In this document: positions 2,168 through 45,933 of the stretch, piece by piece
Numbering within the stretch: the stretch's first letter is position 1
Layout: each line of letters begins with the position of its first letter
Virus record (IMG/VR): IMGVR_UViG_3300045012_000053
Span: 37,361 to 101,360 of that record
From: a virus
Direction: 5' to 3' (one strand)
Length of the DNA: 64,000 nucleotides
Translations under genes and position numbers: made by a program
The notes under the pieces: model-generated
Seen by the model: the letters and a program-made list of their open reading frames with translations, nothing else
Database searches by the model: none
Told to the model about the DNA's origin: nothing

Positions 2168-2382
2168 TTCAACCTTGGACTGGTGACGCAGAAGAACTCT
2201 TCGCCATCAGGAACCCGAAGAGCGGAACCCGGGAATCATACCGGGATGGTTGAGTGCCATCTTCCTAAGCCCCCACTCAGGGGTGTAGAAGAGCATGCGT
2301 CATCAGTGGTTCCAGCAAATTTTGTGCACAATCGGTCGGGCGTGCCACTAACACGCCCTCCTACTCTTTAGTGGAGAGTATC
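2168..2382 (+). other. Intergenic region with several hairpins, no convincing gene
   Basis: About 215 bases lie between two genes. CCCGG/CCGGG near 2228-2245, CCCC/GGGG near 2270-2283 and GGGCGTG/CACGCCC at 2338-2358 can each form a stem. An open frame here has no ribosome-binding site and an unprotein-like composition. The region may be a structured leader for the downstream endonuclease gene or a remnant of its insertion. No promoter of the type found elsewhere in this window is present. Confidence 0.4.
2338..2379 (+). promoter_or_regulatory. Leader hairpins, second one overlapping the ribosome-binding site
   Basis: GGGCGTG (2338-2344) pairs with CACGCCC (2352-2358). Directly after it ACTCT (2363-2367) can pair with AGAGT (2375-2379), which overlaps the GGAGAG ribosome-binding site of the endonuclease gene starting at 2383. 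The same two-hairpin arrangement occurs before the second Endonuclease VII gene near 12 kb. This suggests that translation is restrained, as known for some T4 homing endonuclease genes. Confidence 0.5.
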
Positions 2383-4693: not shown

Positions 4694-6997
4694 GTGGCAC
4701 TTACCGACGCACAGAGACAGGCAAATAGCAGAGCAAGAAAGAAGGGACTACCTGAACCTTACAGCGCAGCAGAATCGAAGGCACAAGCGGAGGCGCACGC
4801 GGCAAAGGAATCAAGACTCGTAGAACTGTTGGAAGAAGTTGCGGCCCACGACAGAGAAGGAAAGAGATACAAGAGCGAGGCCCGCAGCTATACGAAGTTG
4901 GTGCGTCTGTATTACGGTCAACCTGAGAATGGAGATGCCGATGACGATGAGACCAGCGACGGCAAGACCGCCAAAAAGCCGAAAGGCCCGAAGCGTCCCA
5001 ACCCATCAGAGACTCGTATACGAATTCAAAACTCCGACGCTGCTCCCTTGGAGCCAGTTAAGGGTAAATCCCGCAAGCGCGCAATCGAAGACATCACCTA
5101 CGAAGTAGATGATATCGTCGGTTTCTGGCGCTGGCTCGATCTGCGAGATCGCGCGCGAAAAGATTTGTATTGGCTCTGCCGACTACTCGGGCTGGGCGTG
5201 TACCGCGACGTGCACCAGATCACCTGCGACCAGTTCGTGCAGAAGAACTTCGGCGGACCTTGGCTGAATCGGGACGGCACGGTAGATCGTGAACGCACCC
5301 CGCTTGAGCCGATGTACTTTGAAGGCTACACGCTGGACGATTTTCACGAGATGATCGATGCGCAAGAGCGTTTTGATGCGCAAGGTCGCTCGACAAAAGA
5401 AATGATGCTGCTCGACTCTCGTGGCTTTTACAAGTCAACGATTGACGGAGTAGACTCGGTTCAATGGCTGCTGAACTGCCCTGATATCCGCGTGCTCATC
5501 ATCACTGGTGAGTACAAGCTGGCGCTGTCGTTCATGCTTGAAATCAAGGGCTACTTCTTTGCAGCGGAAGGCCAAGACTTTACCTCGTTCCAGCTATTGT
5601 TTCCCGAGTACGCGCTGTACGGCGTGGATGGGACTTCGAAGGAACCGCTATTCTCTCCCGCTCGTATCCTGACACAACGTCAAGGCTCGATCTGGGTGAA
5701 CTCAATCGTTGCGAACGTATCCGGTTGGCACTGCGACATCAAGAAGGGTGACGATGTTGTCACCAACGCGAACTCGAACACGGAAGACACGAAAGAGAAG
5801 CTAAAGAAAGATTACAACGGCACCGATGACTTGCTCGACCCGCACGGGTTTAGCGATCACATAGGCACCCGTTACTTCACCGACGACTGGTACGGCACGC
5901 GTCTCACGCCTCAAGACGGAGAGAGCGAGATCGCGCCGATCAAGTACCACTGTCGCGGATGCTGGGAAGTTAGACCGGAATACGCAGAAGTTCCGATCAT
6001 GCGCCTCACCGAAGAGATGGTGAAGCTGACGTTCCCGCAGAAGTGGACCTTTGCGAAGTTGCACCGTTTGCTCTTAAAGAAGGGCGAGCGCGACTTCCGC
6101 AACCAGCAGCTCAACGAGCCTACGGACGCCGCAGAAGACAGCGGCTTCAAGGTCAGCTTCACGGAGCATGACTTACGCGCGCACAGCTATCAGCGCGAGG
6201 CCGCGCCGAAGGCTGGAGACGTTTACATTACGTGGGACTGGGCGCTCTCGGACAAGAAGACATCAGACTACTCGGTCGGCGTCGTGGCTCGTTTGTACAA
6301 GAACGACATGAACGAGTGGGCGTTCGTAATTCTCGAAGTCATATACGACAAGTGGAAGTACTCGGAACTCGCTTTTCAGATCGTGGCGCTCTCGAAGCGC
6401 TGGGGTCCGAAGGTCACCATGATCGAAGCGTCCAACGCTTTCGATCTTTTGAGAGACGAGATCACACGAGTCGGCCAGCGTCAAGGCTACCAGCCGTACA
6501 TATACTGGAAGCAGCCATCGCGGGAAGAGAATGCGAAACGAAACCGAATTAAATCGTTGGAAATCCTTTTAGCGGAGCACCGTTTGCACTTCGTGCTCGG
6601 CCCGTGGATTGACGAAACGTTCAAACAGTTCACCCAGTACACAGGCGAGAAGAAGAACAAAGGCCGCAAGGAAGATATCCCGGACGCCATCTCATACATG
6701 ACGTATATTCTCCCGGCGGAAGCTCGACCAATCATCGACAAGATCGACCCGGAAGAAGAGAAGAGACTGGCAGAGGAACGAGACAAGCAGTTTTTGAAAG
6801 TGCGCCACTACGAAGCGTACTTTGGACAGAGAGTTAGAACGAAAGAAGAAGGCGGAAACCTTCCCGCTCCGACGTGGCGACAGTGGTCGCGTGGAGACTC
6901 GGGCGAGGTAAAACCGCCGGAGCCAGAGCCAGAACCGCCAAAGCCGCAGGACCCGAGAATGAAAATCTTCGGCAATAAAGGGCCTTGGCGCTTGTAA
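4694..6997 (+). CDS. Terminase large subunit (DNA packaging motor)
   Basis: 767 residues from a GTG preceded by TAGGAG. The N-terminal 130 residues are a charged helical extension. The ATPase has a Walker A-like SRGFYKST (about residues 241-249) and a Walker B-like acidic pair in KKGDDVV. The RNase H-fold nuclease has acidic residues in TWDWALSDKKTSD (about 514), MIEAS (about 575) and DIPDAIS (about 661). It cuts concatemers and drives DNA into the prohead through the portal encoded next. The family's usual length is 450-650 residues, so the N-terminal extension and acidic/proline tail are additions. No separate small subunit is recognised; the extension might supply that role. Confidence 0.95.
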   Translation: MALTDAQRQANSRARKKGLPEPYSAAESKAQAEAHAAKESRLVELLEEVAAHDREGKRYKSEARSYTKLVRLYYGQPENGDADDDETSDGKTAKKPKGPKRPNPSETRIRIQNSDAAPLEPVKGKSRKRAIEDITYEVDDIVGFWRWLDLRDRARKDLYWLCRLLGLGVYRDVHQITCDQFVQKNFGGPWLNRDGTVDRERTPLEPMYFEGYTLDDFHEMIDAQERFDAQGRSTKEMMLLDSRGFYKSTIDGVDSVQWLLNCPDIRVLIITGEYKLALSFMLEIKGYFFAAEGQDFTSFQLLFPEYALYGVDGTSKEPLFSPARILTQRQGSIWVNSIVANVSGWHCDIKKGDDVVTNANSNTEDTKEKLKKDYNGTDDLLDPHGFSDHIGTRYFTDDWYGTRLTPQDGESEIAPIKYHCRGCWEVRPEYAEVPIMRLTEEMVKLTFPQKWTFAKLHRLLLKKGERDFRNQQLNEPTDAAEDSGFKVSFTEHDLRAHSYQREAAPKAGDVYITWDWALSDKKTSDYSVGVVARLYKNDMNEWAFVILEVIYDKWKYSELAFQIVALSKRWGPKVTMIEASNAFDLLRDEITRVGQRQGYQPYIYWKQPSREENAKRNRIKSLEILLAEHRLHFVLGPWIDETFKQFTQYTGEKKNKGRKEDIPDAISYMTYILPAEARPIIDKIDPEEEKRLAEERDKQFLKVRHYEAYFGQRVRTKEEGGNLPAPTWRQWSRGDSGEVKPPEPEPEPPKPQDPRMKIFGNKGPWRL

Positions 6998-7015
6998 TAA
7001 TGAGGACATGACAGC

Positions 7016-44001: not shown

Positions 44002-44506
44002 GCACAATTTTCTCGCAGAAGAGACAGGTCGGCGGGTCCTGCTTTTCATAGAAGTAAACAGGCGCGCGGCAGATACAGCAGAGCGTGGTAGGGGGAGGGG
44101 GCGGGATGTAACGGGTAGCTGTGGGCGGGAGAGGCGGGAGATCGGACGCGTCGATGTAGCCTTTCTCAGGAATGGGCGTCGCCTTACCTTCCTGCTCCTG
44201 CATCTTCAATTTCTTTTTCAGTTCTTTGTTGTGTTCCGCGAGGAGAGCCTTCGTCTCCGCGTTTTTCTGTTCCACGGCCCACAAAGACACAAACTGTTCC
44301 CTCGCTTCCGGGGAGATAGTGAGTCCGGAAGCTGGGCGATTCTCTCTTAATTTTCCAAGAGGCCCAGCCTTGTACGTGTACCATATCCATTCGGGTGCTC
44401 CGTCAGTCTTGAAACCCGCTCCCTTCGCGGCGGCGAGATCGCCGTGGAAGTCTTGGGAGAACTCGGCCTCGAAGCGGCGAAAAGTACCATTCCAGCGGAG
44501 GTTCAT
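43976..44506 (-). CDS. HARP-like N-terminal domain with C-terminal zinc ribbon
   Basis: 176 residues, ATGA overlap with the previous gene. The first 60 residues (FRRFEAEFSQDF, AAAKGAGFKTD, EWIWYTYKAGPLGKL) resemble the small domain found at the N-terminus of some phage SNF2-type helicases, but no helicase follows. Then a charged coil and Pro-rich linker, and CCICRAP ... CLFCEK, a four-Cys ribbon. It may be a stand-alone branched-DNA binding protein; inferred only from pattern. Confidence 0.5.
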   Translation of the reverse strand: MNLRWNGTFRRFEAEFSQDFHGDLAAAKGAGFKTDGAPEWIWYTYKAGPLGKLRENRPASGLTISPEAREQFVSLWAVEQKNAETKALLAEHNKELKKKLKMQEQEGKATPIPEKGYIDASDLPPLPPTATRYIPPPPPTTLCCICRAPVYFYEKQDPPTCLFCEKIVLDISDEVC

Positions 44507-44724
44507 TTATTGAGGTGATCTCTCAGTCTCTCGAAGACCCAGTTCACGGTGTCGTACGCTTGCTGCTCCGGAAGATTGTGGTCCTCGATCAGGTGTACAA
44601 TTAGTCGGTTCGCCATTCGCATACTGACGCTGCTCTTACAGCGCAGACAATCCCTCATCATCGGAATATCGATGACAGTAACAACGCGGGGGCCGTAGAT
44701 CATTCGTTGGATGAGGGAGAGCAT
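44503..44724 (-). CDS. Hypothetical protein
   Basis: 73 residues. An MRDCLRCKSS Cys pair with His in HLIEDHNLPEQQAYDTVNW suggests a single zinc-finger-like site followed by a helix. The start overlaps the preceding gene (TAATG) and the stop overlaps the next (ATGA). Function unknown. Confidence 0.55.
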   Translation of the reverse strand: MLSLIQRMIYGPRVVTVIDIPMMRDCLRCKSSVSMRMANRLIVHLIEDHNLPEQQAYDTVNWVFERLRDHLNK

Positions 44725-44969
44725 TACGTGCTCAACCCCAACTCGATGCCGCTCTTCGCCAGTTCCAAGGCGCGGCGCAGCTTCCCGTTTTCTGCGATCA
44801 GATCATCCATCGTTTGACTCACGATGTTCCACTGCTCCGAGACCTGCGACGCAACCAAGTGCGACGTTGGGTCCTCGTTTGATTTCTCCGTGCTCGTAGT
44901 GAGCATGTTCTCTATTTGACTTTCTATCCATCCTTGCGCGAATATAGCAGAAGATAATTTATGGCTCAT
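44724..44969 (-). CDS. Hypothetical helical protein
   Basis: 81 residues from the ATG with AGAGGT upstream; the frame extends further upstream but without a site. Helical throughout with coiled-coil-like spacing (QTMDDLIAENGKLRRALELA). It overlaps the zinc-repeat nuclease by four bases. Function unknown. Confidence 0.55.
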   Translation of the reverse strand: MSHKLSSAIFAQGWIESQIENMLTTSTEKSNEDPTSHLVASQVSEQWNIVSQTMDDLIAENGKLRRALELAKSGIELGLST

Positions 44970-45523
44970 TTTAACCTCTTTACGTAATTTTTGATACATT
45001 GCACCTGCTTCAAGAAGTCTGTGCCGCTCATTCTCAGTTTCATCCGGTTACAAATTTCGCAACAGGGGCGACAATTATTCCGCACATAGCCTACGTTGTT
45101 GTTCCACCGATCTATACCACGCGGTTTTTCTTTTTCACCACAATAGTGACAAGACTGAATTACTAGTGCTTTAAACTGTTCTATCGTTATAACAAACTTT
45201 AATTCTCTGTAACGAGCATTACGTTTGTATCGGACAAAAGAGCCATCTGGATTACAAGTTGAGCAAACGCTACGCTCTCTATTATGCTTGCAAAATCCTT
45301 GACCTCCGCACTCTCTACAGTATCGTCGACGGCGATTGTGTCTACAAAAATTGCTGCCCCCGCACTCCTTGCACGTAGAGCGATGATGATTATGTTGACA
45401 TATGCCGCTACCCTTGCAGATTTTACAGTTGCTGCGTCTCCGCTCGTGTTCACAAATGCTGCTGCCTTTGCAGTCTATACACTGAGCACGTCGTTTATTA
45501 TGAGTGCATTTTATATCCGTCAT
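44966..45523 (-). CDS. HNH-type endonuclease with five tandem Cys/His zinc repeats
   Basis: 185 residues from the ATG at 45523, overlapping the previous stop (ATGA). Residues about 5-92 contain five repeats of about 18 residues with the pattern C-x-H-x4-R-x2-C-x2-C-x-G (e.g. CEHERRRSNCKICKGSG, CRHNRRRRYCRECGGQG). A basic link leads to an HNH-like nuclease (CHYCGEK, GIDRWNNNVGYVRNNCRPCC, CNRMK). Each repeat can bind one zinc ion and the arginines could contact DNA. The gene is visibly AT-rich. Best read as a mobile endonuclease with an unusual DNA-recognition array. Confidence 0.8.
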   Translation of the reverse strand: MTDIKCTHNKRRAQCIDCKGSSICEHERRRSNCKICKGSGICQHNHHRSTCKECGGSNFCRHNRRRRYCRECGGQGFCKHNRERSVCSTCNPDGSFVRYKRNARYRELKFVITIEQFKALVIQSCHYCGEKEKPRGIDRWNNNVGYVRNNCRPCCEICNRMKLRMSGTDFLKQVQCIKNYVKRLK

Positions 45524-45933
45524 AATCCCAGACGATCTCTTCTTTTTGGGTCGTTCTGTTCGGCCTTCTCTTTCTCGTCGATTGTCTTGAAGTAGTTCAT
45601 GCTCTTCAATCCGTAGTTCCCGTACAAGCTGTGCCACATATCGTAGCAGAGAAAGCACACGCGGTGACTGATCGCGCCGTACAATCTTTTGCAAGCGCAT
45701 TTCTCGTCGTCGCACACGAACACAAGTTCTCTCACCACCTTCTCGTCGCCGGACAAAACATAGTTACATATTCGGCAGCGCGCTGGAAGCAGGCGGCGCA
45801 CCTTGTCGTACTGCCAGCAATTCAAGAACGCAGTGCGGGGCGTATCCGGATGCTTCTGGCCCTCTATCCACACCTTCAATTGGTTCATCCACTTCTGCCC
45901 CGTGGTTATCACGAATTTATACGCGAAATCCAC
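45520..45933 (-). CDS. Hypothetical zinc-binding protein
   Basis: 137 residues from a GTG inside the endolysin gene's end; an ATG 15 residues later is an alternative. CRICNY, then CDDEKCACKR and CFLCYDMW supply up to seven Cys, enough for two zinc sites. Resembles stand-alone zinc proteins of early phage operons. Function unknown. Confidence 0.5.
   Translation of the reverse strand: MDFAYKFVITTGQKWMNQLKVWIEGQKHPDTPRTAFLNCWQYDKVRRLLPARCRICNYVLSGDEKVVRELVFVCDDEKCACKRLYGAISHRVCFLCYDMWHSLYGNYGLKSMNYFKTIDEKEKAEQNDPKRRDRLGL

Follow-up and report, generated by a model that had tools for sequence, protein, structure and literature searches.

The gene examined here is probably a free-standing, intron-less homing endonuclease that carries an N-terminal array of five zinc units as a DNA-docking module (Table 1). 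The analysed stretch of 64,000 nucleotides, hereafter the window, covers positions 37,361-101,360 of a 101,360-base virus record; the record encodes a terminase and a portal protein, thus the virus is a tailed phage. The array gene was located among small genes that follow one another on the minus strand, and an endolysin gene lies one gene away. The assignment as homing endonuclease is based on empty insertion sites in relatives, hotspots shared with homing endonucleases, a split DNA polymerase gene, a sporadic distribution, the exchange of the array between nuclease types, a PacI-like active site and the basic character of the array.

Table 1 Features of the window, with positions counted from its first nucleotide
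Feature	Position	Strand	Remarks
Upstream flanking gene	45520..45933	-	137 aa, function unassigned; ATGA overlap with array gene at 45523-45520
Array-HNH gene	44966..45523	-	185 aa; ATG at 45523, TGA at 44968-44966
Zinc unit 1	45455..45508	-	CTHNKRRAQCIDCKGSSI
Zinc unit 2	45401..45454	-	CEHERRRSNCKICKGSGI
Zinc unit 3	45347..45400	-	CQHNHHRSTCKECGGSNF
Zinc unit 4	45293..45346	-	CRHNRRRRYCRECGGQGF
Zinc unit 5	45239..45292	-	CKHNRERSVCSTCNPDGS; P instead of G at unit position 15, ligands intact
HNH (beta-beta-alpha metal) core	45038..45151	-	Residues 125-162: CxYC, G-I-D138-R139, G-Y146, N150, CCxxC-N159
Downstream flanking gene	44724..44969	-	Start ATG at 44969, ATGA overlap with stop of array gene
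Terminase-portal junction	6998..7015	+	Empty in this phage; array-HNH or GIY-YIG genes in relatives
Kissing-hairpin leader	~2331-2382	+	Precedes Endonuclease_7 gene 2383-2742

The encoded protein comprises five units of the pattern C-x-H-x6-C-x2-C, followed by an HNH nuclease domain. The units start at residues 6, 24, 42, 60 and 78, a period of exactly 18 residues. Shuffling of the protein 200,000 times yielded two units as the best result, three were never reached. Hence the open reading frame and the five regular 18-residue Cys/His repeats proposed in the first-pass annotation were confirmed. The term near-perfect, used there for the repeats, is justified by the ligands and their spacing and not by the sequence: pairwise identities between the units were 33-56 % for the protein and 35-59 % for the DNA, and the fifth unit deviates at G15. 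With this low identity the units have to be seen as old repeats and not as recent copies; the DNA identities ruled out that units of the window gene were duplicated recently. In another locus (L031:1305-1859, minus strand) adjacent units were nearly identical, with CEHGRQKHKCKDC present three times, a sign that arrays grow by duplication of units.

Searches for known relatives of the array gave no assignment. The family had no match in Pfam or NCBIfam, the window protein being scanned with both and the sister proteins with Pfam. A profile of the array against the PDB gave matches at chance level only, a fold search restricted to the array no credible match, and a literature search on the letters of the motif nothing relevant. 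The classical C2H2 pattern (C-x2-4-C, then H-x3-5-H) is absent from the window protein, which has ligands in the order C-x-H-x6-C-x2-C and no Pfam zinc-finger match. Array proteins did not match the DnaJ central (CxxCxGxG) domain in Pfam, and the ligand pattern differs. Zinc binding by the array is a prediction from its sequence.

The C-terminal part of the protein matched the PHROG profile of HNH endonucleases (E 1.1e-8). In a fold search, PacI was the sole solved fold below an E-value of 0.001 (E 3e-5), and both results agree with the HNH-like nuclease annotated behind the repeats. A structure predicted from ten sequences, with a mean pLDDT of 88.7, presented a small fold repeated five times, together with a beta-beta-alpha core. 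D138, R139, Y146 and N159 of the window protein aligned with D92, R93, Y100 and N113 of PacI (residue numbers derived from the alignment). Three of them, D138, Y146 and N159, were invariant among the aligned relatives. In PacI the metal is held by Asp and Asn, and Tyr is placed as the general base (PMC4081073). The nuclease of the window is probably active, since the PacI-like Asp, Tyr and Asn residues have been kept. PacI differs as a restriction enzyme without a zinc array.

A search with a DNA pattern of two units yielded 32 IMG/VR stretches and five genome contigs, some of low complexity. Seven loci were dropped as low-complexity sequences or other Cys-rich proteins (L006, L012, L024, L037, L038, L044, L045), leaving 36 proteins with 146 units (140 distinct) and two to eight units each; a few of the proteins are truncated. 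The search for repeat-nuclease fusions proposed in the first-pass annotation thus recovered sister proteins, and the number of units varies among the homologues. The search pattern itself places C1, H3, C10 and C13 in all units. Positions 5 and 7 were mostly R or K, so the arginine of the originally described motif corresponds to a basic preference at these positions and is not invariant across the family. Positions 6, 8 and 9 were among the most variable (entropies of 3.05, 3.39 and 3.56 bits), those of positions 16 and 17 being also high.

In about 30 other loci, two to eight units were fused to at least four types of nuclease: the PacI-like HNH of the window protein, a relative of it without the zinc cysteines (SLDRFxPxLGY, phrog_3322), Endo VII-like domains, of which the CQFPNC subgroup was assigned by eye, and an HIDHIIP-type HNH, also recognized by eye (L005 and L022). 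One of the proteins (L026) reached a score of 16.7 against Endonuclease VII (PF02945), the cut-off being 23.6. Some sister proteins resemble Endonuclease VII in the nuclease behind the array, whereas the window protein had no Pfam match and only a partial PHROG match to it. The HNH type of the window was combined with an array in only 3 of 78 parsed loci; many of these 78 loci had a CxCG...SCGC ribbon or another N-terminus instead. Because the array precedes several nuclease types and the same nuclease has other N-termini, array and nuclease have been exchanged as modules. Among cultured phages (INPHARED) the nuclease domain was found with other zinc ribbons, the five records read having no array; a search of INPHARED with the array alone gave no match, although a low-complexity filter may have blunted it.

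Further variants were observed. One array gene (L010:123-827, minus strand) continues into the sequence of an IS200-type transposase (Y1_Tnp, E 3e-26), and in L018 an array as in L010 is followed by an Endo VII-like domain. At sites of array genes, two genomes coded for other nucleases (G005:C1:17062-17682 and G004:C1:21538-22151), in which zinc-ribbon-like C-x2-C pairs of another pattern stand before HNH or Endo VII domains. N-terminal zinc repeats may thus be a common device of nucleases at these sites.

The upstream flanking gene gave no match in a search, therefore relatives were identified with the terminase: 45 related loci were obtained, and for several of them the record contains array genes as well. 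In four relatives (G001, G004, G005 and G007) the site of the window gene was empty, the homologues of the flanking genes abutting by an ATGA overlap, while in the window the array gene lies between the same two genes with ATGA at both ends. In a fifth relative (G003) the site was occupied by an unrelated ORF of 33 amino acids. The gene order itself shows gain or loss; insertion rather than deletion is suggested as the direction by several independent empty alleles. A 73-aa protein of the form C-x2-C...H...H (window 44503-44724, minus strand), with a weak match to an antitermination Q-like protein, is also extra in the window. A homologue of it is located in G004 directly upstream of the array gene most similar to that of the window; the two genes may move together or coincide by chance.

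Sister array genes occupied further sites. The terminase-portal junction is empty in most relatives, as in the window, but contains arrays with the nuclease type without zinc cysteines in L047 and L064, an array with the PacI-like type in L052 and GIY-YIG proteins in L067, L072/L073 and L088/L089. NUMOD3 was above the Pfam cut-off in the GIY-YIG proteins of L067 and L088 and weak in that of L072. A site adjacent to a Prim-Pol gene held an array gene in G004 and another HNH gene in G005 and was empty in G003. A DNA polymerase gene (phrog_17) was split just upstream of a motif-A-like DLNAIETRV. Array genes were present in this split in the virus of the window itself (G000), outside the window, and in G005, G023 and G024, an Endonuclease_7 protein in G004, and the split alone in G003; the gene was unsplit in G020 and G022. 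The copy in G000 is the second array gene of the same virus (L002, G000:C1 ~5,400-6,070) and consists of two units and an Endo VII-like domain. An array gene of G004 was 51 % identical to that of the window, and its site was empty in the close relative G005. In general, array genes are sporadically distributed, with up to three per genome. Sharing of hotspots with homing endonucleases was observed for sister array genes, one of them in the same virus, but not at the slot of the window gene itself, which lies between two poorly known small genes and not within a strongly conserved gene. The free-standing homing endonucleases of T4-like phages are known by such marks: essential genes are split, and hotspots lie between genes (PMC2988022). 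With the empty alleles at its own site and at the sister sites, comparative gene order makes a strong case for the window gene as a mobile phage gene, as the first-pass annotation had supposed.

The same distribution bears on a fixed function in the phage, either as DNA-packaging HNH protein or as junction resolvase of the Endonuclease VII type. HNH packaging proteins occur beside the large terminase in other phages, some sister genes adjoin the large terminase and a part of the array group is Endo VII-like. However, the window gene is about 38 kb distant from the terminase gene, the terminase-portal junction is empty in most relatives, the positions vary and include the split DNA polymerase, and copies of different nuclease type occur within one genome. 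A fixed function is highly improbable; packaging and resolvase roles were ruled out by position and sporadic distribution.

For the window gene as a homing endonuclease, the C-terminal PacI-like HNH domain would nick or cut the DNA of a related phage without the gene. Repair from the gene-bearing copy would then insert the array gene, which would thereby be inherited with a bias and spread in mixed infections. The N-terminal array would dock to DNA, the task of NUMOD or zinc-ribbon modules in other homing endonucleases, and it has been swapped between nuclease families and changes its number of units. The mob HNH and seg GIY-YIG genes of phage T4 are similarly intergenic, sporadic, present several times per genome and found at shared hotspots, with essential genes such as the DNA polymerase split (PMC2988022). 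The DNA-binding part differs: array genes code for an N-terminal C-x-H-x6-C-x2-C zinc array, mob proteins have distinct C-terminal regions. NUMODs are likewise exchangeable modules, repeated in some proteins and adjoining nuclease domains, and NUMOD3 proteins occupy the same terminase-portal site as array genes; however, the window protein and its sisters had no Pfam match to NUMOD modules, and the zinc-ligand repeat is of a different pattern.

By analogy to these systems, the array most likely serves for docking to DNA, be it sequence-specific or not. DNA binding is suggested by the basic charge (net +14 over 85 residues), by the predicted repeated small folds and by the position, which in other enzymes is that of DNA-binding modules. 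Small zinc repeats commonly bind RNA or proteins, and the array might thus attach to an RNA or a protein partner, e.g. the replication machinery of host or phage, instead of a DNA target. This is improbable, as the array is linked to DNA nucleases of several families and its genes are located at sites common to homing endonucleases with DNA-binding modules.

The first-pass annotation had suggested that each unit reads a few bases. In a modular base reader of this kind residues 6, 8 and 9 would recognise the bases, and the number and sequence of the units would define the target. The constant ligands and spacing with clustered variable positions in between are a feature of modular base-reading, similar to the logic of TALE proteins, and the variation from two to eight units and the exchange between nuclease types are consistent with it. 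If units read bases, repeated inserters at one site might share the reading residues. The mean identity at positions 6, 8 and 9 was 0.241 for nine same-site pairs and 0.248 for 127 others. This comparison has little power, since cleavage by free-standing enzymes can lie hundreds of bases or more away from the place where the gene is inserted (PMC2988022). The unit number also differed at one and the same site, with 2, 2, 4 and 4 units at the polymerase split and three to five at the terminase-portal junction, and some linkers between units were five residues longer (L008, L017, L029). With no excess of shared residues, yet distant cutting possible, the claim is lowered rather than refuted: the present evidence does not favour base reading by single units, which we regard as unlikely. 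In a wider proposal, quite unlikely as well, several endonuclease families would employ the array as a modular domain for reading sequence, and the number of units and their variable residues would determine the target of any nuclease fused to it.

The differing unit numbers and the lack of excess identity at positions 6, 8 and 9 agree with an array that adds affinity only. In this case the protein would be the same homing endonuclease, with the array as a non-specific or DNA-structure-specific clamp, and the HNH domain with its flanking helices would choose the site. The strongly basic array is in line with a clamp, and the nearest solved fold, PacI, has no such array and still recognises a specific site (PMC4081073). 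On the other hand, the three most variable positions cluster in the stretch between the ligands, and basic residues are retained at positions 5 and 7, a pattern which also fits sequence reading. We attribute to the clamp a considerable chance, somewhat below even.

A 5' RNA leader was noticed, first in the terminase-portal insertions. It consists of a pair of hairpins, the 7-nt loops of which (CCAnUAA and UUAnUGG) are complementary, and its Shine-Dalgarno sequence GGAG overlaps the second hairpin. A pattern scan followed by parsing revealed 18 convincing leaders, all directly before endonuclease-like genes: GIY-YIG or NUMOD3, array-HNH, Endo VII, other HNH and AP2, several assigned by eye with Pfam silent. 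One leader is located in the window, others in L008, L014, L017, L072, L236, L239, L240, L243, L245-L247, L249-L251, L255, L257 and L261; the window's array gene is without a leader. The loop letters fixed in the pattern carry no evidential weight, but the free positions covaried in a set of 19 sequences that still included a doubtful one (L254). Offsets 3-5 of stem 1 were paired in 18-19 of the 19 sequences, in comparison to 8-10 after shuffling. For the middle loop-loop pair the count was 18 of 19, in comparison to 9.3. An Rfam search gave nothing credible, and a literature search found no paper on such a leader. The leader may hold the translation of homing endonucleases in check. Just before the leader, a palindrome-like TTTGTAGCTACA was present in several unrelated endonuclease genes (L014, L239, L251, L255).

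The combination of array and nuclease may reach beyond phages, since one giant-virus match spans nearly the whole protein: the predicted structure of a 'DnaJ central domain protein' of Pithovirus LCPAC304 matched the window protein over 193 columns with 30 % identity, a likeness of predicted structures. Those of other giant-virus HNH proteins also matched. These organisms differ as large DNA viruses of eukaryotes.

Free-standing homing endonucleases are already known, the zinc-array module is uncatalogued. The repeat, for which no relative was found in Pfam, NCBIfam or the PDB, has the behaviour of a module exchanged among phage homing endonucleases. The DNA polymerase split at its catalytic core adds to the known essential phage genes associated with homing endonucleases, and the natural pairs of occupied and empty sites are a resource for testing what the array recognises. 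Should the array turn out to read sequence, it would offer a small substitute for zinc-finger or TALE arrays, and as a modular reader it would present a natural, compact targeting module.
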